Part shown: piece by piece, positions 2,850 through 20,503 of the stretch
Layout: the number at the start of each line of letters is the position of its first letter
Position numbering within the stretch: position 1 is the stretch's first letter
Origin: a virus
DNA: 34,624 nucleotides
Strand: one strand, 5' to 3'
IMG/VR virus record: IMGVR_UViG_3300041809_003462
Location: 1 to 34,624 of that record
Notes under the pieces: model-generated
Database searches by the model: none
What the model was told of the DNA's origin: nothing
What the model saw: only the letters and a program-made list of their open reading frames with translations
Made by a program: the position numbers and the translations under genes

Positions 2850-4097
2850 ATGGCCACTGATTCCCTTCAGGTTCACTACTGGGCGGTTGACCGGCTGATT
2901 CCTTACGCCCGGAACGCTCGCACGCATTCGGATGCGCAGGTGGCGGAAATCGCCGCCAGCATTGCGGAGTTTGGATGGACGAATCCCATCCTGGCCGGCG
3001 GCGACGGCGTGATCATCGCCGGCCACGCGCGGCTGGCGGCCGCCAGGAAGCTCGGCATGGGCGAGGTGCCGGTTATCGTCCTGGATCACCTGACGCCGGC
3101 ACAACGGCGCGCGCTGGTGCTGGCCGACAACAAGCTGGCGCTCAATGCGGGTTGGGACGAAGAGATGCTGCGCGTGGAACTCGAATCCCTCAAGGAGGAG
3201 AACTTCGATCTGGACGTGGTTGGTTTCTCGGACGAGGAACTCGAAGCTCTGCTTCGCGAGCCGGAAACGACCAATGCCGGATTGACCGACGACGACGCCG
3301 TTCCGGAAGAGCAGGAACACATTGTCACGGTGCCGGGCGACATCTGGGTGCTCGGCGAGCACCGCCTCCTGTGTGGCGACGCTACGCAGATGGGCGATGT
3401 GGAGAAGGTGCTGGCGGGCGGCCTCGCAGACATGGCGTTTACAGATCCGCCCTACAACGTGGCGTATGAAGGCAAGACCGCCAAGAAGCTGAAGATTGGC
3501 AACGACGCTCTGGGTGAGAAGTTCCACAACTTTCTGTTCGAAGCGTGCGAAAACATCCTGGCGGTGACCAAGGGCGCCATCTACGTTTGCATGTCGTCGT
3601 CGGAACTGCACACGCTCTACCGTGCGTTCACTGACGCCGGCGGCCACTGGTCCACGTTCGTCATTTGGGCAAAACATCACTTCACGCTCGGGCGGTCGGA
3701 CTACCAGCGCATGTACGAACCGATCCTCTACGGCTGGCGCGAAGGAACACAGCACTTCTGGTGTGGTGACCGAAACCAGGGCGACGTCTGGGCGATCAAG
3801 CGGCCCATGGCGAATCTGGAGCACCCGACCATGAAGCCGGTTGAGTTGGTAGAGCGTGCGATCCGGAACAGCAGCAAGTCGCGCGACACGATCCTCGACC
3901 CGTTTGGCGGGTCCGGCACGACGGTGATCGCTTGCGAGAAGACCGGACGGCAGGCGCGCGTGATGGAACTTGATCCGAAGTACTGCGACGTTATCGTGCG
4001 GCGATGGGAGGAGTTCACGGGGCAGCAGGCCACGCACGAGGACGGCAGGGCGTTTGCGGAGATGGAAGTGCAGTCTACGCGGCCCGGCGCGGCGTGA
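2850..4097 (+). CDS. ParB-domain / DNA adenine methyltransferase fusion (DPPY type)
   Basis: This 415-residue protein begins 20 bases after the previous gene and has the same ParB-like domain, closely similar over about 125 residues (ARNARTHSDAQ, GHARLAAARKLGM, LADNKLALNAGWDEE). The methyltransferase half differs: motif IV is TDPPYN (residues 198-203) and the SAM-binding motif is DPFGGSGTT (350-358). DPPY with beta-class order points to N6-adenine methylation of DNA. COG1475/COG0863 fusions of this kind are common upstream of terminase genes in prophages. Its last 23 bases overlap the end of the convergent higA gene. Its 3' third is duplicated at 4691-4948. Confidence 0.9.
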   Translation: MATDSLQVHYWAVDRLIPYARNARTHSDAQVAEIAASIAEFGWTNPILAGGDGVIIAGHARLAAARKLGMGEVPVIVLDHLTPAQRRALVLADNKLALNAGWDEEMLRVELESLKEENFDLDVVGFSDEELEALLREPETTNAGLTDDDAVPEEQEHIVTVPGDIWVLGEHRLLCGDATQMGDVEKVLAGGLADMAFTDPPYNVAYEGKTAKKLKIGNDALGEKFHNFLFEACENILAVTKGAIYVCMSSSELHTLYRAFTDAGGHWSTFVIWAKHHFTLGRSDYQRMYEPILYGWREGTQHFWCGDRNQGDVWAIKRPMANLEHPTMKPVELVERAIRNSSKSRDTILDPFGGSGTTVIACEKTGRQARVMELDPKYCDVIVRRWEEFTGQQATHEDGRAFAEMEVQSTRPGAA

Positions 4098-4368
4098 CCT
4101 GACGCTCGATGTTTTTTCCGGACTTTCGTTGCGCCGTCCGGAGATCGTAGAAAGTCTGAAGGTTTAGCCAAAACTGTGGCGTGGTTCCGAAGTAACGAGC
4201 CAGCCGGAGCGCGGTGTCGGCGGTTATACCACGTCGGCCGCGAACGACCTCATTGAGGCGGGCGGTGCCGATGCCAAGTTCCTTGGCCAGTGCGTTGACG
4301 CTCATGCCCAGAGGAACGAGGTATTCCTCCTTGATCGTTTCGCCAGGATGCGGCGGCTTCATGGTCAT
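4075..4368 (-). CDS. higA: HigA-type antitoxin (XRE family HTH)
   Basis: The protein is about 97 residues with the classic HigA/VapI layout: PHPGETIKEEYL at the N-terminus, an XRE helix-turn-helix (VNALAKELGIG, then LNEVVRGRRGIT) and the FGTTPQFWLNLQ signature. It should neutralise the HigB toxin encoded just upstream and repress the shared promoter. The ATG at 4368 was chosen over a TTG at 4386 that overlaps the higB stop; a second ATG at 4362 is also possible. The gene's 3' end overlaps the convergent methyltransferase gene by 23 bases, so the cassette is packed tightly against phage DNA. Confidence 0.9.
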   Translation of the reverse strand: MTMKPPHPGETIKEEYLVPLGMSVNALAKELGIGTARLNEVVRGRRGITADTALRLARYFGTTPQFWLNLQTFYDLRTAQRKSGKNIERQVTPRRAA

Positions 4369-4382
4369 TGCGTTGTTCTTCT

Positions 4383-4658
4383 TCAATGGTAGTTCATGAT
4401 TTCAACATCGGTGGCTTTGCCGTCCTGCCAGACGAAGCAGATCCGGTAACGATCGTTGACTCGAATGCTGTGCTGCCCGGCACGGTCGTTCTTGGGCGCC
4501 TCCAGTTGCATGCCAGGGCTCTTGAGATCGAGGAGCGTCCGAGCTGAGTGCAGGAAGGCCAGCTTGCGATAAGCGGTTTTGGCGATCGCCTCAAACTGCC
4601 GGGACCGGAGGCCGTTGAAAATCTTCTCCGTCTCGGCATTATTGAAACTGGCGATCAT
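4383..4658 (-). CDS. higB: HigB-type toxin (RelE/ParE superfamily mRNA interferase)
   Basis: The product has 91 residues, the normal HigB length. It opens with a MIASFNNAETEKIFNG-type N-terminus and has the family signature SIRVNDRYRICFVW near residues 65-78, followed by a VEIMNYH ending. HigB toxins cut mRNA on the ribosome when free of HigA. The toxin precedes the antitoxin, the usual order for this family. There is no Shine-Dalgarno site. A -10 box lies only six bases before the ATG, so the transcript is probably leaderless. Confidence 0.9.
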   Translation of the reverse strand: MIASFNNAETEKIFNGLRSRQFEAIAKTAYRKLAFLHSARTLLDLKSPGMQLEAPKNDRAGQHSIRVNDRYRICFVWQDGKATDVEIMNYH

Positions 4659-8028: not shown

Positions 8029-9911
8029 TGATGCAACCTTTCTCTATCCACGAAATCGGGGCGGCAGTGATGGAGCCGCCACGCGACATCACTGTTTCGC
8101 AATGGGCGGACGAGAATCGTGTGCTCACCGGCGGCGCGGCGGCCGAGCGGGGCCAGTGGCGCACGCGGCCTTACCAGCGCGAGCCAATGGATGTGCTCAG
8201 CCCGAGCCATCCCTGCAGGCAGGCTGTTCTGTGGTCGGCAGCGCAGCTTCTGAAGACCGAGGTGCTGCTCAATTTTCTCGGCTTCATCGCCGACGTCGAT
8301 CCGGGGCCGGTGCTGCTGGTGGAGCCGCGCGCGGAGGATGCGAAGGCGCTGTCCAAGGATCGCGTGGCGCCCATGTTCCGGGCTACACCGGTGTTGCGGG
8401 GAAAGATCGCACCCGTCAAGTCGCGGGATTCGAGTAACACGACGCTGCACAAGGTCCTGGCGAATGGCGCGGGGCACATCACATTTACCGGGGCGATTTC
8501 GCCCTCTGGCTTGGCCATGCGGCCGATCCGGTATGTATTGCTTGATGAGGTGGATCGGTACCCGGCCAGCGCCGGCAGCGAAGGCGATCCGGTGTCGCTG
8601 GCCATCCAGCGCACATCGGAATTCCAGCACAACAAGAAGATCGTCATGGCGTCGACGCCTACGATCAAGGGCATCAGCCGGATTGAGTTGGCCTGGCTCG
8701 AAAGCGACCAGCGAGATTACTTTGTACCTTGCCCAAAGTGCGGGCACTACCAAGTGCTGGCGTTCGGTGACGGGACCGGACCGGGGCTGGTGTGGCCAGA
8801 GGGAAAAGCCGAAGAGGCGATGTATCGTTGCGCTGGGTGTCAGGAGTTGATTCCCCACCATCAGAAAGCTTCGATGGTGGAACGCGGCGAGTACCGGGCT
8901 GCGAATCCGTTGTCGCTGATTCCGGGATTCCGGGTGTCGCAGTTGATCTCACCAAAGAAGTCCTGGGGAGAGATTGCGAAAGAGTTTCTGGCGGCAAAGA
9001 AGTCGCCCGAAACGCTGAAGGCCTTCAAGAACACGGTTCTGGCCGATCTGTGGGAGGAAAACTATGAAACTCCCACCGACGCCCACGCGCTGTGGAACCG
9101 CTGCGAGCCGTTCGAGGCCGAGGTCCCAGAAGGCGTGGCGCTGATCACCGCCGGCGTGGACGTCCAGGCCGACCGGCTGGAGATGGAGATTGTGGGTTGG
9201 GGCCGCGATGAGGAATCCTGGTCGGTCGCCTATCACGTGATCCCCGGCGACGTTAACCGCAGCGAGGTTTGGGAACATCTCGATTGCCTGCTTCTCTCTG
9301 AGTGCTTGCACGCCTCCGGCCTGCCCATGCGGATTGTAGCGGCGTGCATCGATTGCGGTTTCAAGGATGCAACGGTGCTGGGTTTCACCCGCGACCGCTA
9401 CAACCGGCGTGTCTATGCCACGAAGGGGCGCGCGGGCGAGTCGCCGATCTGGCCACGAACGCCCAGCCGGAAGAACCACACGCCGTTTTTCATGGTGGGC
9501 GTGGACGCAGCCAAGACCGCTATCTACGACCGCCTGAAGATTCAGAAGCCAGGTGCTGGCTATTGCCACTTCCCGCTGGGGCGCGATCTGGAGTATTTCG
9601 AGCAGCTCACCGCGGAGAAGAAGTACACGCGGTATCACAACGGCTTCCCGAAACAGGAATGGAAGAAGCCGGCCAACGCCAGGAATGAAGCACTCGACGC
9701 GCGGAACTACGCTTATGCGGCATTGCACGCTCTGTACGCCAGCGGCTTGAAGTTGGCGGTCCACTGTGACCGGTTCGCCTTGATGGTGAGCGCGCGGCGG
9801 AAGCAGGCAACCGCCCCAGTCGCGGCACAGCCTACGCCGGAGGTGCCGAAGCCACGGGCTGAGCGCGAAGAGCCGTGGATACCTCGGCGGAAGTGGTTCG
9901 AAAGAAACTGA
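8028..9911 (+). CDS. Terminase large subunit (GpA family)
   Basis: The 627-residue protein is a lambda gpA-type packaging motor. It has a deviant Walker A segment SAAQLLKTE (70-78), Walker B LLDE (171-174) in YVLLDEVDRYP, and a zinc ribbon with C235, C238, C268 and C271. The nuclease domain begins at a GVDVQADRLEME segment near residue 370 and ends with the ARNEALDARNYAYAAL region near 545-560. It uses ATP to pump DNA into the prohead and cuts concatemers. The ATG at 8028 overlaps the small-subunit stop; the longer frame starting at 7899 is a shadow of the small subunit. Confidence 0.95.
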   Translation: MMQPFSIHEIGAAVMEPPRDITVSQWADENRVLTGGAAAERGQWRTRPYQREPMDVLSPSHPCRQAVLWSAAQLLKTEVLLNFLGFIADVDPGPVLLVEPRAEDAKALSKDRVAPMFRATPVLRGKIAPVKSRDSSNTTLHKVLANGAGHITFTGAISPSGLAMRPIRYVLLDEVDRYPASAGSEGDPVSLAIQRTSEFQHNKKIVMASTPTIKGISRIELAWLESDQRDYFVPCPKCGHYQVLAFGDGTGPGLVWPEGKAEEAMYRCAGCQELIPHHQKASMVERGEYRAANPLSLIPGFRVSQLISPKKSWGEIAKEFLAAKKSPETLKAFKNTVLADLWEENYETPTDAHALWNRCEPFEAEVPEGVALITAGVDVQADRLEMEIVGWGRDEESWSVAYHVIPGDVNRSEVWEHLDCLLLSECLHASGLPMRIVAACIDCGFKDATVLGFTRDRYNRRVYATKGRAGESPIWPRTPSRKNHTPFFMVGVDAAKTAIYDRLKIQKPGAGYCHFPLGRDLEYFEQLTAEKKYTRYHNGFPKQEWKKPANARNEALDARNYAYAALHALYASGLKLAVHCDRFALMVSARRKQATAPVAAQPTPEVPKPRAEREEPWIPRRKWFERN

Positions 9912-10178: not shown

Positions 10179-10427
10179 CTATTTTGATCGAGCGGTGGCC
10201 GGCCGCCGGGGCGCTTCTTCAGGCCATTGGATCGTTGGGCGGCGCTTCTGGACGGCACAATCTCTCAGAAACAGATTCATGAGGTTCTGATAGGGCATCC
10301 CCATCTCGGCCGCCATTCGCTTGAAGTAATCCACGGTGGTGGCATCGAGGCGGATGGTGATCTGCCGCTTGAGTTGTTTAGCGTAGGGATTCTTACGGGA
10401 CTGCGAAAAGTCGTATTGCTTCCTCAT
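10179..10427 (-). CDS. Orphan BrnA-type antitoxin
   Basis: The 82-residue protein has the BrnA/CopG-like signature: an N-terminal YDFSQSRKNPYAKQLKRQITIRL-type segment, then TVDYFKRMAAEMGMPYQNLMNLFLRDCA, the ribbon-helix-helix DNA-binding fold of antitoxins that pair with BrnT. No BrnT gene is next to it. It sits between gpW and the portal gene on the opposite strand, 11 bases from the gpW stop. It could be an anti-addiction protein, a regulator, or the survivor of a decayed pair. A complete BrnTA pair occurs elsewhere in the window. Confidence 0.75.
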   Translation of the reverse strand: MRKQYDFSQSRKNPYAKQLKRQITIRLDATTVDYFKRMAAEMGMPYQNLMNLFLRDCAVQKRRPTIQWPEEAPRRPATARSK

Positions 10428-10491: not shown

Positions 10492-12177
10492 ATGAATCTT
10501 CTCGATAAAGCCATTAGCGTTGTGTCGCCGAAAACGGCGCTCCAGCGGGTGCGGAGCCGGGTGGCGCTCCAACTGACTGAGGGGTATCTCCAGCGGCACG
10601 CGCAACGGTTCCAATACGACGGCGCCACGGCGGGGCGGCGCGCCTACGGTTGGTTTGCCGCTTCGACCGACGCCAACGTCGAGTTGATGGGGTCCCTTAT
10701 CTGGCTCCGCAACCGGAGCCGGGAACTCGTCCGCAACAGTCCTTATGCCGCGCGCGCGATTGAAGAGTTGGCCGGCAATGTGGTCGGGACGGGCATCGTG
10801 CCCAAGGCCAAGACGGGCAATACCGCGCTCGACAAGATCATCGATACCGAGTGGTCGTTTTTCGCGGATGAGTGTGACACGCCACAGCGCCTCGACTTTT
10901 ATGGCATGCAGACGTTGACCGTTCGGACCATGGCTGAGAGCGGTGAAGCCATCGCACGGTTCCGGCCGCGTCCGGCCGATGCGGGCCTGCGCGTGCCCTT
11001 GCAGCTTCAAATGCTCGAAGCCGATTTTCTGGACCAGGCGCGCACGATGGGCCTCGTCAACGGCCACGTGATGGAGGGCGTGCAGTTTGACGAACTTGGG
11101 CGGCGCGTCGCCTACTGGTTGTTCTCGTATCACCCGGGTGGCGTTCTGATCCTGAATCCGCGCGGCGGCATTGTGAGCCAGCCCGTGCCTGCGGATCAGA
11201 TCATGCACACGTACCGCGTGCTCAGGCCGGGCCAAGTCCGCGGCGTGCCGTGGCTCGCGCCCGTGATGATGGCGCTCCGGGATTTGGACGATTACTGCGA
11301 TGCGGAACGGGTCCGGAAAAAGATCGAAGCCTGCGTTACAGCTTTCGTCGAGCAGCCCGAGGGTATTGATGGCGATCCGCTGGGTTTGGCCGGCACCGAT
11401 CCATCGAGCAAAGCTCCCGTCGAGACATTTCAGCCGGGGATGGTCGAGTACCTGAAGCCGGGCCAGGCGGTGAAGTTCAACAACCCTCCGGCGGCGGGCG
11501 GCTACCGCGAATACAAGATGACGGAGTTGCAGGGGATCATGGCCGGGATTGGCCTGCCTTATGAACTCGGCACCGGCGACATGTCGCAAGTGAATTACTC
11601 CTCCTGGCGCGGCGGCATGTTGGGCTTCCGCAACACCGTAGAAGCGTACCGCTGGCTTACTTTGATCCCGCTGTTCTCAATGCCGGTGTGGCGGCGATTC
11701 ATCGACACGCTGGTCTTGCAGGGTAAGATTCCGCAGTCTGTTTCCAGAGATCCGAAAACCCGGCTGCGCTCGGTTCAGTGGACCGCGCCGCGGTTCGAGT
11801 CCGTCGATCCGGTAAAAGACGCCGAAGCCGTGTTGAAGGACGTCCGCATGGGCCGGAAGACGTGGTTCGAAGCGGTGCTGGAGAACGGCTACGATCCCAC
11901 CACGCAGCTTGACCAGATCGCGCTCTTCAATAAGCTGGTAGACAAGCTCGAAATCATCCTCGACGCCGACCCGCGCAATACGACGCTCCGTGGCCAGGAA
12001 CAGCCGGCCAGCACGGAAGAGCGCACGCCGAGCAGCAAGCCCGCGCAGGGTAAATCGCAGGGCCAGGGCTTCGCCGCGCTGTCGGAAGAAGACTTGGGCA
12101 TGGTGAAGGAACTGCTCGTTGCCGGAATGACGCGGACGCAAAGCAGTCCGGGTTGCACATCGCGCGTCTACAGTTGA
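10492..12177 (+). CDS. Portal protein, lambda gpB family
   Basis: The 561-residue product matches the lambda-type portal in length and features: RSRELVRNSPYAARAIEELAGNVVGTGI near residues 75-103, LQMLEADFLDQ near 175, a VEYLKPGQAVKFNNP segment near 320 and NYSSWRGGMLGFRN near 365. It forms the dodecameric ring at the capsid vertex through which DNA passes. The tail after residue 500 is Gln/Ser/Pro-rich. It is followed immediately by a minus-strand toxin-antitoxin remnant rather than by the protease gene. Confidence 0.92.
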   Translation: MNLLDKAISVVSPKTALQRVRSRVALQLTEGYLQRHAQRFQYDGATAGRRAYGWFAASTDANVELMGSLIWLRNRSRELVRNSPYAARAIEELAGNVVGTGIVPKAKTGNTALDKIIDTEWSFFADECDTPQRLDFYGMQTLTVRTMAESGEAIARFRPRPADAGLRVPLQLQMLEADFLDQARTMGLVNGHVMEGVQFDELGRRVAYWLFSYHPGGVLILNPRGGIVSQPVPADQIMHTYRVLRPGQVRGVPWLAPVMMALRDLDDYCDAERVRKKIEACVTAFVEQPEGIDGDPLGLAGTDPSSKAPVETFQPGMVEYLKPGQAVKFNNPPAAGGYREYKMTELQGIMAGIGLPYELGTGDMSQVNYSSWRGGMLGFRNTVEAYRWLTLIPLFSMPVWRRFIDTLVLQGKIPQSVSRDPKTRLRSVQWTAPRFESVDPVKDAEAVLKDVRMGRKTWFEAVLENGYDPTTQLDQIALFNKLVDKLEIILDADPRNTTLRGQEQPASTEERTPSSKPAQGKSQGQGFAALSEEDLGMVKELLVAGMTRTQSSPGCTSRVYS

Positions 12178-12196: not shown

Positions 12197-12654
12197 TCAC
12201 GGACGGATTTGGTTCCAGTGTTTCGCGGTGACAAACTGAGCCAGATGCTTCGGATTCGTGGTCGCGACCACGGCTTCGGAAGATGCGCCGAACGAAAGAG
12301 CCTGGGCCGCGATCAGGACATCGATATCGAGTGATGTTGCTTCGGCGGTGGGGCGTCCCTCTTGCCGCGCCCGCGCCCAGAGTTCGGCCGCCAGACCAGG
12401 GCTCCGTCGGAGAGCGGCAGGTAGCGCTCGGCCGTTGCCGCGACGAAAGCATCCAGCCTGCCGACGCTGGCAGTCTTCTTGGCACGCAGGAGTTCCCGCT
12501 TCAATTCGTAGTAAACGATTGCGGGCACGATGACTCGGCTTCCATGCAGCAGACACTGGGAGAGCCACTCGGAAACGGCAATCACTTCCGCGCTGCGTTG
12601 CGGATGAGTAAGGAGACCAAGCGGGCCGGAATCCAGGAAGAGGAATCGGTTCAC
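12197..12654 (-). pseudogene. Frameshifted PIN-domain toxin (VapC-like)
   Basis: The first part reads MNRFLFLDSGPLGLLTHP, with the first PIN-domain aspartate, then VPAIVYYELKRELLRAK, and stays convincing to YLPLSDGAL. The remainder of the domain (AAELWARARQEGRPTA, then LDIDVLIAAQAL, then VVATTNPKHLAQF) continues in another frame to a stop at 12197. Joining the frames needs one missing base near 12394-12400, so the toxin is inactive unless this is an assembly error. VapC toxins are Mg-dependent ribonucleases. The GTG start at 12654 overlaps the antitoxin stop (GTGA). Confidence 0.8.
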
Positions 12655-12884
12655 GGATAAAGGAGCGGCTCGCCGGCGAGGATCCGGTTCGCGTTCATCG
12701 CTTTCTTAAACCCGGCCAACTCTTGCTCCGCGGCGCGAATTTCTTCCGGGTCGTCGGTGGCGTCCTGGAGCCGCCAGTCCCGCAAGAGTTGAAGCGTTAC
12801 GGAATCGATCATAGAGGGGGGCGAAGGCGGCGCAAAGGGCGGAGCTTGGGGCGCTTCGTCCGGCTGCCGTGTCTGGTGCTTCAT
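12651..12884 (-). CDS. Putative antitoxin partner of the PIN protein
   Basis: This 77-residue protein ends at the PIN gene's start (GTGA overlap), the usual antitoxin-toxin order. It has a Pro-rich N-terminus and a helical C-terminus (MIDSVTLQLLRDWRLQDATDD, EIRAAEQELAGFKKAMN, then LLYP), consistent with a flexible antitoxin that wraps the toxin. The ATG at 12884 was chosen for its GGGAGG four bases upstream; an earlier in-frame ATG at 12914 has none. I do not recognise a named antitoxin family. Confidence 0.6.
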   Translation of the reverse strand: MKHQTRQPDEAPQAPPFAPPSPPSMIDSVTLQLLRDWRLQDATDDPEEIRAAEQELAGFKKAMNANRILAGEPLLYP

Positions 12885-12943
12885 AGTGCCTCCCATATGT
12901 ATCGTACCAACCAAACCGCCTAAGAGAAAAGGAGAACAGTTTC

Positions 12944-13429
12944 ATGAAGGGAAACCCGCAGGTCATGACGGGTCTGCAAGAGGCAATAGCTATCGAAAGC
13001 TCGTTGATGATCCAGTATCTTCTCGACCAGCGCGATGTGGAGCGACTGGGCCTGGATTTGGCAGACGGCTTGAAGCAGATGAAAGACCAGTGCGAGGACC
13101 ACATGAAGTGCCTCGTGAGCCGCCTGCTGTTCCTCGAAGGTGCACCCACGATCGCGCCGAAGCCCGCCGCCACGCACGACAGCGTCACCGAAATCCTCAA
13201 CGATGCGTTTGCGGCCGAACAGGAGGCTGTCGCCCGGTTCACCGATCTCTGCCGGCAGTGCTACGACGCCGGCGACATGTCGAACTTCCACTTCGCCCAG
13301 CACCTCATCAAATGGCACCGCGAGGGTGACGACAAGTTCAAGGGCCACATCGCCTGGCTGCAGCAGCAACTCTACCAACTCAAGAAACTGGGCGAGAACG
13401 ACTACATCGCGGTCAACGCGGTGAAGTGA
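12944..13429 (+). CDS. Bacterioferritin-like protein inside the head gene cluster
   Basis: The 161-residue protein aligns with bacterioferritin along its length: MKGNPQV start, E18 in the first helix, SRLLFLEG (59-66), AAEQEAV (90-96) and GHIAWLQQQL (134-143). Bacterioferritins form 24-mer cages that oxidise and store iron. By eye the diiron site is altered: C50 occupies the Glu position three before H53, and F132 the Glu three before H135. The usual haem Met is also replaced. It may have a divergent metal site or serve a structural role. An AGGAG site sits about eight bases upstream, and it begins on the phage strand 12 bases before the capsid gene. Confidence 0.82.
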   Translation: MKGNPQVMTGLQEAIAIESSLMIQYLLDQRDVERLGLDLADGLKQMKDQCEDHMKCLVSRLLFLEGAPTIAPKPAATHDSVTEILNDAFAAEQEAVARFTDLCRQCYDAGDMSNFHFAQHLIKWHREGDDKFKGHIAWLQQQLYQLKKLGENDYIAVNAVK

Positions 13430-13440
13430 GGACGACACCT

Positions 13441-15744
13441 ATGCCGTTATTGCAAACCGAAGTGTTGGACATCACCGCGCAGAAGCCACCCGATGCGACG
13501 GCTGCGGCGGATTCGAAGCCACCAGAGACGATGACCGCCGCGGATTCGAAGCCGCCCGAGGAGCATCCTGACGCGGAGGTATTTTCTGCTGACGCCCAGG
13601 TCGTGCCCAGCACCGCTAACGCCAAGGACGGCACCATCGACGTGGTCTGGTATAGCGGGGCATCCGTCCCGAGGATCGACCGTGCCACCGGCGAACCCTA
13701 CATGCTCAAGCTCGACATGCAGGGCTGCCGCTTCGACCGCCTGAACAACGGCGCGCCCGTTTTCGACACCCACTTCACCGGCGACGATTTCAAATCGATT
13801 ATCGCGGGCAAGGTCGGCACGCGGGCCCAGGTCGGTGTTGTCCGCCGCGCCTGGCCCAACGGCGACAAAGGCATGGCCACGCTGCAGTTCGACCTCGGCG
13901 ATCCGGACGGAGCCGAGATGTTCCGCAAAGCTTCCAGTGGAATCCTCCAGAACCTCAGCTTCGGCACCTGGATCTACCAGCGCGAAAAAGTCGACGCGCA
14001 AGCCGAAGGCATGCCGGAAGGCAAACCGCCGTACGCGAACGACAAAGAAATCGGCATGTTCAAGGCCACCGATTGGGAGCCGTTTGAAATCTCCCCGTGC
14101 ACGGTTCCCGCCGATTTCAGTACCTGCTTCTTGAGTGCCGAACCCAGCGGGGAAAGTATTGCCTCCGCGCCGGAGAATCCCGGTGCGGCCGATTCACTAC
14201 GGGCAACCAGCCCACAAAAGGAGAAACCTGCTATGGAGCAACCCACGCAGGCGACGGGCACAGAGGCCCGTAGCGACGAACAGGCTCTGGCCGCCGCGCG
14301 CGACGAGGCGGTCGAGGCCGAACGGCAGCGCGTCAGCGAAATTCAAGCGCTGAACCTGACCGCAACCAGATATGGCATCGACGGCACGGTCATCAGCGAT
14401 TTCATCGCCAAGGGCATTTCCGTCGATCAGGCCCGCAAGGAACTGTTTGCCCAGCTTGAACAAAAAGGCAAACAGGACGCGAAGGGCAACGAGTTTGTGA
14501 TCCGCGGCGAGCAAGCCTCGGTGACTCGCGACGGCCAGGAGCAACACCTCGCCTGCATGCAGATGGCGTTGCTCCTGCGCTCGGACCCGCAATTCTTCCT
14601 GGCCCGCCATACCGGGACCTCGGAGTATCTGGACGGCTGCGGCGCCGAGCAGCAGAAACGGGCCGTCGAGATGGCGCGGGAGTACCGCACCTTCAAGCTC
14701 ATCGAGATGGCCAAGGAGGCCCTGCAACTGCGCGGCATCAACCCGCGCGGCATGGACGTGACGCGCATCGCGGAGTTGGCCTTGCAGGCTCCCTCGCGCG
14801 GCGCCGAGTTCTTCATGGGCGGCTCCGAGTCGACCTCGGACTTCCCGGCGATCCTGGCCAACGTCGCCAACAAGACCATGCGCCAGGCCTACGAGGCTTA
14901 TCCGCGCACCTTCCAGCCTTTCTGCCGCCAGGTCACCGCGCAGGACTTCAAGCCCATCAACCGCGTGCAACTCTCCGATGCGCCCGCCTTCCAGAAGCTG
15001 AATGAAAAGGGCGAGTACCACCGGGCGAACCTGACCGACAACAACATCAGCTACTCGCTGAACACGTTCGGTGAGATCGTGGCGCTCACCCGCAAGGTCA
15101 TCATCAACGACGACCTGCAGGCGTTCACCCGCGTTCCGGCACTGCTCGGCGTGGCCGCGGCGCAGTTGGAATCGAACACCGTCTGGGGTATCATCACTTC
15201 CAATCCGGCCGCCATCTATGCGGGCGACAAAACCTCCACGACCCTGTTCCACGCCGCTCACGGCAACCTGCTGACCGGCGCCACCAGCAGCATCAACCCG
15301 AACGCGACCAACGCGGAGCCGCTCGAGGCTCTGGGTGCCGGCCGCGCCGCCATGCGGATGCAGAAGGGGCCGCAGGGCACTCCGTTGAACCTGATTCCAC
15401 GCTTCATCGCGGTGCCGACGGCGCTGGAGAGTTATATGCTCCAGTTGGTTTACCCCATCAACCTGGCCTCCTGGCGTCCGGACGCGGTGATTCCGGAATG
15501 GGTGCGCACCTTGGTGCCGGTGGTCGAACCGCGCCTGGATGCCAACAGCACGACGTCCTGGTATCTGATCGCGGACCCGGCGCAGGTCGACACCGTCGAG
15601 TACTGCTACCTGGAAGGGCAGCAGGGCGTGTACATCGAAACCAAACAGGGCTTCGAGGTCGACGGCGTCGAGATCAAAGCCCGCATGGATTTCGGCGCGG
15701 CGGCGATCGATTACCGCGGGCTGCAGCAGAATGCCGGGCAGTAG
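13441..15744 (+). CDS. Prohead protease / major capsid protein fusion
   Basis: The 767-residue protein joins a prohead protease to a capsid protein. After a repetitive N-terminus (two AADSKPPE units), the protease region spans about 60-225, with H111 in FDTHFTG and S173 in NLSFGTW as likely catalytic residues. A linker with a coiled-coil/scaffold-like stretch (about 250-330) precedes the capsid domain (about 440-765), which contains ITSNPAAIYAG and the ending FGAAAIDYRGLQQN. This fused arrangement occurs in Mu-like and other prophages. Self-cleavage would release the capsid subunit. The ATG at 13441 was chosen over a GTG at 13426 that overlaps the ferritin stop. Confidence 0.88.
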   Translation: MPLLQTEVLDITAQKPPDATAAADSKPPETMTAADSKPPEEHPDAEVFSADAQVVPSTANAKDGTIDVVWYSGASVPRIDRATGEPYMLKLDMQGCRFDRLNNGAPVFDTHFTGDDFKSIIAGKVGTRAQVGVVRRAWPNGDKGMATLQFDLGDPDGAEMFRKASSGILQNLSFGTWIYQREKVDAQAEGMPEGKPPYANDKEIGMFKATDWEPFEISPCTVPADFSTCFLSAEPSGESIASAPENPGAADSLRATSPQKEKPAMEQPTQATGTEARSDEQALAAARDEAVEAERQRVSEIQALNLTATRYGIDGTVISDFIAKGISVDQARKELFAQLEQKGKQDAKGNEFVIRGEQASVTRDGQEQHLACMQMALLLRSDPQFFLARHTGTSEYLDGCGAEQQKRAVEMAREYRTFKLIEMAKEALQLRGINPRGMDVTRIAELALQAPSRGAEFFMGGSESTSDFPAILANVANKTMRQAYEAYPRTFQPFCRQVTAQDFKPINRVQLSDAPAFQKLNEKGEYHRANLTDNNISYSLNTFGEIVALTRKVIINDDLQAFTRVPALLGVAAAQLESNTVWGIITSNPAAIYAGDKTSTTLFHAAHGNLLTGATSSINPNATNAEPLEALGAGRAAMRMQKGPQGTPLNLIPRFIAVPTALESYMLQLVYPINLASWRPDAVIPEWVRTLVPVVEPRLDANSTTSWYLIADPAQVDTVEYCYLEGQQGVYIETKQGFEVDGVEIKARMDFGAAAIDYRGLQQNAGQ

Positions 15745-15820
15745 GGGCGCGGCCGACGTAGGGCAACCAAACAGAGCGGGGCGGTGTGAGCCGGCCTGCT
15801 CGGAACAGGAGAAAGGAACT

Positions 15821-16183
15821 ATGCAGAATTACGTGCAGCAAGGGAGAACGGTAACGGTGGTCGCGCCCTACAACGTGAACTCCGGTGGCGGGGTGGAGGT
15901 TTCGGGCACCGGCTACGTGTTCGGGATTGCGGTGAACAACCAAAACCTGGGCGACAGCATGGAAATCGCCGTCGAGGGTGTTTTCGATCTGGCGAAGGAT
16001 GCCAGCACCTTTGCCAACGGCGATTACGTGTACTGGGACAACACGAACAAAGTCGCTACCTCCACGGAGACCGGAAACAAGAAGATCGGCGTGGCGGTTC
16101 TGAGCCAGCCGATCGGCGTGAACGCGCCGGGCGGCAATGCCGGCGACGCGACGGTCCGGGTGCGGCTGAATCCGGCGTTCTGA
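15821..16183 (+). CDS. DUF2190 capsid decoration (cement) protein
   Basis: The 120-residue, beta-rich protein has the DUF2190 pattern (MQNYVQQGRTVTVVAPYNV, GTGYVFGIAVNN, EGVFDLAKDASTFANGDYVYWD, and a C-terminal GDATVRVRLNP). These proteins decorate and stabilise the capsid shell after expansion, and the position directly after the major capsid gene fits. A strong AGGAGAAAGG ribosome-binding site precedes the ATG at 15821; the longer frame from 15731 overlaps the capsid gene. Confidence 0.88.
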   Translation: MQNYVQQGRTVTVVAPYNVNSGGGVEVSGTGYVFGIAVNNQNLGDSMEIAVEGVFDLAKDASTFANGDYVYWDNTNKVATSTETGNKKIGVAVLSQPIGVNAPGGNAGDATVRVRLNPAF

Positions 16184-19175: not shown

Positions 19176-19604
19176 CTAGGCCGCGTCACGGATGTCGATG
19201 GTAATTTCCTTCCCGATGACGCGGAAGGCTGCTTCGATCTGGTCGAGACGCGATTTATGGTTCAGGTCGAACAGCCGATCCACGATGCCTTTGGAAATAC
19301 CGAGACGGCGCGCCAGCTCGGCTTTGTGGATGCCCGACGCATGGAATGCCGTGTATAACTCCGCTTTCGCACTCTGCAATGCGGAAAGTCGGATCATGCG
19401 GTATTTCTTACCGCGCGGTTTGCCGGGCGCGGGTAACACCGTCCCTTGGCGAATGTGTTCCTGTACCAGAGTTTGCAGTAATGCGGTAGCCATCGACCTG
19501 GCGTCATCTTCGTCATCGCCTTGCGAGACGCCCCAACCGAAATCGGGGAACGTGATAACGAAGCCGCCGTCTTTTTCTTGTTCGTACAGCGCGGGATATT
19601 CCAT
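19176..19604 (-). CDS. hicB: HicB-type antitoxin with HTH domain
   Basis: The 142-residue protein has the HicB partial RNase-H-like fold at the N-terminus (YPALYEQEKDGGFVITFPDFGWGVSQGDDEDDARSMA is the usual pattern) and a C-terminal helix-turn-helix (IHKAELARRLGISKGIVDRLFDLNHKSRLDQIEAA). It should bind HicA and repress the promoter upstream of hicA. It follows hicA by four bases on the same strand, the toxin-first order usual for this family. Confidence 0.92.
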   Translation of the reverse strand: MEYPALYEQEKDGGFVITFPDFGWGVSQGDDEDDARSMATALLQTLVQEHIRQGTVLPAPGKPRGKKYRMIRLSALQSAKAELYTAFHASGIHKAELARRLGISKGIVDRLFDLNHKSRLDQIEAAFRVIGKEITIDIRDAA

Positions 19605-19608
19605 GGGA

Positions 19609-19791
19609 TCACTTTCTCTTTATGCCAAGTTGCTTCAGGATCTCGTAGTAGGTTCCGGTCCTGACCTCTTTGGATGGATGGCGAGGAATCGTGGTCTGGA
19701 TGCCATGGTAGGAAACAATCCAATGTCTGGTTCCGTCGGTTACGCTGCATCCCTCTTTCTCCAACCGCCGCTTCAACTCGCTCGCCTTCAC
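19609..19791 (-). CDS. hicA: HicA-type mRNA interferase toxin
   Basis: The 60-residue protein has the small double-stranded-RNA-binding HicA fold: KASELKRRLEKEGC, then DGTRHWIVSYHG with the catalytic-type His, then TTIPRHPSKEVRTGTYYEILKQLGI. Free HicA degrades mRNA. The GTG at 19791 gives the normal family length; longer in-frame starts add an unrelated N-terminus. A -10 box ends six bases before this GTG, which also supports the choice and predicts a leaderless mRNA. Confidence 0.9.
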   Translation of the reverse strand: MKASELKRRLEKEGCSVTDGTRHWIVSYHGIQTTIPRHPSKEVRTGTYYEILKQLGIKRK

Positions 19792-19797
19792 ATTTAG

Positions 19798-19839
19798 ATG
19801 GTACTCATTATGGAGAACCCGGTCAAGGAAAGAGTACTC
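19798..19839 (-). promoter_or_regulatory. hicAB promoter with repeated GTACTC operator sites
   Basis: On the minus strand TTGACC (19821-19826) and TACCAT (19798-19803) are separated by 17 bases, and the hicA GTG follows six bases later. GTACTC occurs at 19801-19806, overlapping the -10, and again at 19834-19839 inside the perfect palindrome GAGTACTC (19832-19839), upstream of the -35. The 33-base spacing is about three helical turns, suitable for cooperative HicB binding. Confidence 0.6.
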
Positions 19840-19867
19840 GTATCTGCGAACCATATTTAGGGGAATC

Positions 19868-20503
19868 ATGAAAAACGCAAAGGAAGTATCGAAAGTAGAA
19901 GTGACGGTCCGGCCGCTGTTTGACGCAGCCAAACCGTTTGTGGTGCCGATCCTGTCGGGCGGCGAGAAGAGGTGCGAGGTGCGGTTTCCTTCGGACGAGG
20001 AATGGTGTTCTTGGGCCCGCCAGCAGCGCACCGTCCGGCGGTTCCTGGGTCGCGGGAAATCGCAGACGGAGGATCTGCACCTCGCCGAGGTCAACGCGGA
20101 ACTGTTCGCCAAGATCCGGCTGGATAAAGACGGTCCGGAGTTCGACGACGCCGAGGCCGGCATGGTGATCGGCCGCATCGAGCGGTCCACCGTAACGAAC
20201 ATCGAGCGCGAAGGCATCAATTACCGGATCGAGATGAAAGTTCCCGGCGCGCGTGTGGTTCACGTACTGCGCATGCCGACCGCCAAGGAGATGCAGGACC
20301 ACGAGCGGTCCTCGACCAGCACTGTGGCGGCTCGACGGTCGATTGAGACACGGGCGTTCCTGGAGCCGAGCGGCGCTCTTTACGACAAGCTGCATGTCTC
20401 ACACGAGGGCTATGCCGGCACGGTGCCCATCGTGCATAAGTCGGCTGCGGTTTCCGAGGTCCTCGCCCAACTCGCAATCGAGGCCGACGACGACCCGGAA
20501 TGA
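19868..20503 (+). CDS. Putative tail assembly protein (gpG position)
   Basis: The 211-residue protein lies between the tail tube and the tape measure, the slot of tail assembly chaperones. The content is soluble and mixed (EVRFPSDEEWCSWARQQRTVRRFLGRGKS, a central EDLHLAEVNAELFAKIRLDKDGPEFDDAEA-type helical part, a C-terminal EVLAQLAIEADDDPE). The ATG is preceded by AGGGGA. Its stop overlaps the next start (ATGA). No recognised family signature was found, and there is no evident slippery heptamer for a gpG-T type frameshift. Confidence 0.6.
   Translation: MKNAKEVSKVEVTVRPLFDAAKPFVVPILSGGEKRCEVRFPSDEEWCSWARQQRTVRRFLGRGKSQTEDLHLAEVNAELFAKIRLDKDGPEFDDAEAGMVIGRIERSTVTNIEREGINYRIEMKVPGARVVHVLRMPTAKEMQDHERSSTSTVAARRSIETRAFLEPSGALYDKLHVSHEGYAGTVPIVHKSAAVSEVLAQLAIEADDDPE

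Follow-up and report, generated by a model that had tools for sequence, protein, structure and literature searches.

The ferritin-like gene and its surroundings

The window analyzed here, the whole stretch of 34,624 nucleotides, is a virus record in its own right. Its plus strand contains an ATG open reading frame of 161 codons at 12944–13429, which we count as a real gene and which codes for a ferritin-like protein. The gene belongs to a head module with the order terminase, head-tail adaptor, portal, ferritin-like gene, protease-capsid fusion, cement. The main features of this region are:

8085–9911, plus strand: terminase large subunit
10492–12177, plus strand: portal, lambda family (PF05136; Phage_portal_2)
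12929–12934, plus strand: ribosome-binding site AAGGAG of the ferritin-like gene, read directly
12944–13429, plus strand: ferritin-like gene, bacterioferritin fold, altered ferroxidase ligands
13441–15744, plus strand: prohead protease-major capsid protein fusion (phrog_4523, PF25209)
15812–16183, plus strand: cement/decoration protein (PF09956, phrog_122)

The original prediction described an unusual bacterioferritin-like gene in the head region, and this observation was confirmed overall. The strong ribosome-binding site it reported is the AAGGAG motif, and Pfam and PHROG matches agree with the portal, protease/capsid, and cement neighbors it named. The distance to the capsid gene, given as 12 bases, is 11 when counted to the capsid ATG at 13441. 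In the window, 766 bases separate the portal gene from the ferritin-like gene, and two minus-strand open reading frames lie in the gap; most relatives have a gap of about 35 bases.

The two minus-strand frames (12313–12654 and 12651–12914) overlap and are possibly a toxin-antitoxin pair. The first matches PIN weakly (E 0.12), and the second has a relative at the same place in locus L049. A BrnA-like antitoxin gene (10179–10427, minus strand) lies between the head-tail adaptor and portal genes with no visible BrnT partner. It is also found in L002 (91% identity), and in L218 a BrnA-like antitoxin adjoins an open reading frame that resembles BrnT by eye. HicA-like toxin and HicB-like antitoxin genes are located amid the tail genes (19176–20220, minus strand). 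Consecutive plus-strand genes at 1264–2829 and 2850–4097 each code for a protein with a ParB-N domain and an N6/N4 DNA methylase.

A bacterioferritin fold with an altered metal site

The window protein matches the Pfam Ferritin family (PF00210) with 46.6 bits against a gathering cut-off of 24.5 (E 4.4e-12), and 29 of 32 relatives match the same family at E ≤ 0.001. The prediction that it can be aligned to bacterioferritin (Bfr) along its length was borne out by a phmmer match to a PDB Bfr over residues 1–159 (E 1e-9) and a TIGR00754 match over residues 1–157 (E 2e-9), the latter scoring 37.6 bits, below the family cut-off of 125.55. Structure prediction and superposition on Bfr, which had been suggested as a check, also returned the Bfr fold. 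The AF2 model (pLDDT 96.3) is a four-helix ferritin bundle that superimposes on Bfr with a TM of 0.92 and a Z of 24.4 (VIA-align Z; rmsd 1.1 over 155 residues), and a fifth helix (residues 151–158) is present in this monomer model. The protein failed Dps family profiles (13–14 bits against cut-offs of 158–250), had no PHROG family match below E 0.09, and was not assigned to a defence family by PADLOC. The only match in a phage record, MT835709, was rejected as an ordinary cellular Bfr encoded behind a Bfd-like ferredoxin rather than a phage gene. Three phage entries in BFVD annotated as 'Prohead protease' (A0A6J7XDU5, A0A6J7WIS1, and A0A6J7WPK9) weakly match the ferritin fold (E 0.03–0.13) and are perhaps natural fusions.

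We compared the metal ligands of the phage proteins to those of cellular Bfrs. In Bfr, Fe1 is held by H54 and E18 and Fe2 by H130 and E94, with E51 and E127 as the bridging ligands (PMC3467274). All six diiron ligands and M52 are kept in 13 of 13 cellular acidobacterial Bfrs; none of 32 phage sequences keeps E51, M52, or E127. The corresponding features in the window, with counts among 68 distinct proteins, are:

12995–12997, plus strand: codon of E18 (Bfr E18), Glu in 64/68, Leu or Gln in the others
13091–13102, plus strand: C50-E51-D52-H53, where C50 corresponds to bridging E51, E51 to haem M52, and H53 to H54
13217–13219, plus strand: codon of E92 (Bfr E94), invariant (68/68)
13316–13318, plus strand: codon of H125, at the helical position of bridging E127, invariant (68/68)
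13322–13345, plus strand: inserted loop (residues 127–134; a 7-residue insertion), splitting helix D
13346–13348, plus strand: codon of H135 (Bfr H130), invariant (68/68)

As originally predicted, E18, H53, E92, and H135 remain when the protein is aligned to Bfr, and the haem Met is lost, its position being E51 in the window and Met in 0 of 32 sequences. The claim that the Glu of both ExxH motifs is replaced was right for one partner and wrong for the other. C50 does replace E51, with Cys at this position in 64 of 68 proteins, but F132 is not the partner of E127; it lies within the inserted loop that follows helix 112–126. Because this helix is continuous in the model, the register places H125 at the E127 position instead. 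The loop is 4–5 residues longer in some relatives, and other subfamilies have Y, D, F, or A in place of H53. E92, H125, and H135 are kept in the distant L256 protein and down to 33–36% identity, and H120 is likewise invariant among the 68 proteins. H116 and H120 are invariant across the family alignment, even at 33–36% identity (L256 protein, 4001–4480), and may line a subunit interface or channel.

Judged from the aligned residues, the diiron ferroxidase pattern is lost, and E92, H125, and H135 could form a Glu/His/His site for a single metal ion where Bfr holds Fe2. Because the haem Met and both bridging glutamates are lost in all 32 aligned sequences, we conclude on sequence grounds that the protein has the Bfr fold but is not a Bfr by function.

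The gene is an accessory of phages that infect Acidobacteria

Relatives of the gene were found on about 100 IMG/VR contigs, down to 33–36% identity, and in a few acidobacterial genomes. A Bryobacterales bog MAG (L065) carries the gene, a second Acidobacteria MAG has a remnant, and in another genome of Bryobacterales' order (L216) the gene lies in a prophage-like region. The carriers are viruses of soil and peat Acidobacteria. Within that order, phage-type proteins score at least 200 bits and cellular Bfrs at most 68 bits. In the family tree, the phage proteins cluster as one group, set apart by a long stem (0.73); local support is poor. The median pairwise dN/dS of 0.096 indicates purifying selection.

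The position of the gene is conserved. The first 54 contigs that were readable on both sides all have it between the portal gene and the protease-capsid gene, and nearly all carriers fetched later keep this slot. The original prediction had named a lack of conservation next to capsid genes as evidence against it; the slot is instead kept among relatives. No ferritin gene is present in 10 of the 80 best portal relatives, at portal identities of 79–89%, and in the cultured relatives RcOceanus, RcKemmy, S1, LPPA33, MinM1, and PBb001 the portal gene is directly followed by the protease-capsid gene. Since close and cultured relatives do without it, the gene is an accessory rather than a core head gene and is not essential for assembly.

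Some loci bear traces of loss or exchange of the gene. In L131 and L146, a deletion scar fuses the leader, start, and NPQV codons of the ferritin gene to the capsid-precursor linker, so that the capsid precursor (MNPQV...) uses the ribosome-binding site and first codons of the ferritin gene. Subfamilies have also been swapped between backbones; in L114-L116, portal identity is 88% and ferritin identity is 55%.

Searching other head operons, another check proposed at the outset, located the same protein in three unrelated head modules. L112 and L113 have an HK97-type module (PF04860 portal, ClpP-like protease, PF05065 capsid) in which the ferritin gene overlaps the portal stop and precedes the protease; L220, the sister contig of L113, has no ferritin gene. 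In L254-L259, a portal-MuF fusion is followed by the ferritin gene and then by a head maturation protease (phrog_9427). This protease has a relative in Brevundimonas phage Polewnik, which lacks the ferritin gene. Across the three modules, the constant neighbors are a portal before the gene and a prohead protease after it.

A protease tag co-occurs with the ferritin-like gene

A short tag at the N-terminus of the protease co-occurs with the ferritin-like gene, which is a new finding of this analysis. The features in the window are:

13441–13461, plus strand: tag MPLLQTE at the start of the protease-capsid precursor; every ferritin-carrying relative of the module has M[PAS]L[LIT] here
13462–13572, plus strand: variable Pro/Ala-rich linker from the tag to the protease domain

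In every carrier with a readable junction, across all modules, the protease encoded by the next gene starts with M-[PAS]-L-[LIVMT]. Among 77 distinct capsid precursors of the window's module, the tag is present in 63 of 63 ferritin-positive and 0 of 14 ferritin-negative cases (Fisher's test 1e-15, ignoring the relatedness of the sequences). Tag and ferritin each change four times on a tree of these 77 precursors, with no discordant tip. The pattern appears at only 2 of about 358 other open reading frame starts in these loci. The unrelated protease of L113 starts with MSLLSPQ, and that of the ferritin-less L220 with MKQHAIK. Proteases of the third module (L254-L259) start with MAL[MV]RAK, a hydrophobic variant whose position 4 falls outside the first pattern (L/I/T); the Polewnik protease has no N-terminal extension.

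We spotted the tag in the data and widened the pattern at position 4 to M/V for the third module. Because the tag was found by inspection, strictly independent support comes from the loci fetched after it was noticed. Among these later loci, L229-L231 and L249 fit, with starts that include MSLLGQT and MPLLETE, and the third module has its MAL[MV] variant.

The tag is conserved at the amino-acid level. Leu3 is fixed in 62 of 62 sequences through five codons and Leu4 in 60 of 62 through six, which indicates selection on the peptide. We rejected the idea that the tag is kept for translation start because the Leu codons vary. The start Met could be removed, given that residue 2 is small in every case, and the linker is the most variable part of the precursor. 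The tag and the ferritin gene are 11–25 bases apart. Joint loss is weak evidence on its own because one deletion can remove both, as in L131 and L146. We also used AF2 to model a natural read-through sequence that joins ferritin to tag (L113, 19 sequences; one subunit, short linker); the tag came out disordered (pLDDT below 50), with no sign of docking.

A model for recruitment into the prohead

We propose that an altered ferritin cage binds the N-terminal tag of the protease and is drawn into the prohead as a core or cargo, a reading to which we assign a probability of roughly one half. A phage lineage of soil Acidobacteria would have acquired a bacterioferritin and made a head-assembly accessory of it. 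This accessory would keep the Bfr bundle and short fifth helix, with haem binding and the bridging carboxylates gone. A loop has been added at the ferroxidase centre, and the fixed Glu/His/His set, located where Bfr holds Fe2, may bind one metal ion. The ferritin-like protein would be made late, together with the head proteins, and would bind the free [PAS]-L-[LIVMT] peptide on the protease's flexible linker, whether the protease is separate or fused to the capsid protein. Since prohead proteases do their work in the prohead interior, a ferritin particle attached to one would be carried into the head during assembly and would form an internal core or cargo there. The binding, the prohead location, the oligomeric state, the metal content, and the benefit to the phage are the parts that we infer. 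A broader reading is that tag and ferritin make up a transferable two-part device, in which a tag of three residues at the protease N-terminus pulls an altered ferritin cage into the proheads of at least three unrelated modules and which mirrors encapsulin loading. We hold this view tentatively, at somewhat less than even odds.

The original prediction listed possible roles without ranking them. Capsid cargo or a repurposed bundle, either one tied to head assembly, is favored by the fixed slot in three modules, the ligand loss, and the co-occurring tag. A cement role is unlikely given the separate cement gene (PF09956, 15812–16183) and the location of the tag at the protease end of the precursor, and iron scavenging is weakened by the loss of both bridging glutamates. 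We found no virion proteomics for these phages and no literature on a prohead protease with Dps or ferritin-like proteins. Host Bfr peptides were reported in AXL1 virions (PMC9206674), where they may be contamination.

The alternative that survives best is a chaperone or inhibitor that holds the new protease inactive or soluble via the tag and then leaves, never entering the particle. A role of this type fits nearly as well as the cargo reading: the gene lies directly before the protease, the tag is always at the protease N-terminus even when the capsid gene is separate, and a partner acting on the protease alone accounts for all three modules. However, relatives with a nearly identical protease-capsid protein do without it, and a full cage-type fold with a fifth helix would be an unusual choice. 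We regard this role as unlikely.

An auxiliary metabolic gene comes next and is doubtful. The product would be a late cytoplasmic iron-storage or anti-oxidant protein, with the head slot reflecting late expression and the tag persisting as a linked relic. Some viral Bfr genes have been described as auxiliary metabolic genes (PMC10904782), Dps-like genes occur in cultured phages, and E92 and H135 are kept. Yet every member tested has lost the bridging Glu pair and the haem ligand, and subfamilies show further decay of what is left of the site (H53 to Y/D/F/A; E18 to L). The two cultured-phage Dps-like genes that we examined sit in nucleotide-metabolism regions rather than head operons, and an auxiliary function leaves the tag unexplained.

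Ranked below these, and improbable, is a linked cassette in which breakpoints in the linker move ferritin and tag jointly; the tag would serve protease maturation or portal contact, and the ferritin would act independently in the head. The highly variable linker, the backbone swaps among subfamilies (L114-L116), and the L131/L146 scar that spans the ferritin start into the linker are all consistent with such exchange. A cassette accounts for joint loss, but not for the fixation of Leu3 and Leu4, a sign of selection seen only with ferritin present, nor for tags on three unrelated proteases. An active metalloenzyme at E92/H125/H135 (for example mononuclear iron, manganese, or zinc) delivered with the head is very improbable: the three residues are invariant in 68 proteins and at 33–36% identity, with H125 at the E127 position, but they could be structural, and no substrate pocket is known.

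If the ferritin-like protein is indeed recruited as a core or cargo through the tag, a ferritin-fold component would be added to tailed-phage head assembly, and a short transplantable signal would tie the prohead protease to a cage protein. It would then be possible to test directly if phage heads are loaded with metal-binding or structural cages. Such a system would bear on the possible origin of encapsulins as domesticated HK97 shells with ferritin cargo, and the tag together with the ferritin gene would be a sequence marker for finding further examples.

Comparison with known systems

We compared the phage ferritin-like protein to related systems. It resembles bacterioferritin (TIGR00754; E. 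coli and Blastochloris viridis Bfr) in its full-length homology, its fold including the fifth helix, and the positions E18, H54, E94, and H130 that the window protein keeps. Unlike bacterioferritin, it lacks haem Met52 and both bridging glutamates, has a loop that splits helix D, scores under the family cut-off, and is encoded in a phage head operon. Bfr and Dps auxiliary genes of Streptomyces, Lactobacillus, and Grimontviridae phages (PMC10904782) are also ferritin-superfamily genes in phages, but we found none reported to be tied to a prohead protease.

Family 1 encapsulins with ferritin-like cargo (PMC8346489) likewise pair a ferritin fold with an HK97-type shell through a short peptide on a flexible linker, a pairing that is putative in our phages. 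Classical encapsulins carry the peptide at the cargo C-terminus, whereas the phage tag is at the N-terminus of the protease/shell precursor, and the family alignment shows no peptide extension at the C-terminus of the ferritin-like protein. The phage shell is also, unlike an encapsulin, a capsid with portal, terminase, and tail, as its neighbors (portal, terminase, PF25209, cement) indicate. Internal head proteins of phage T4 with a capsid targeting sequence offer a second parallel, being non-essential proteins that a short N-terminal signal directs into the prohead. In T4, the internal protein bears the signal, which the protease cleaves; in the phages described here, the protease bears the proposed signal, and a ferritin fold would be recruited.
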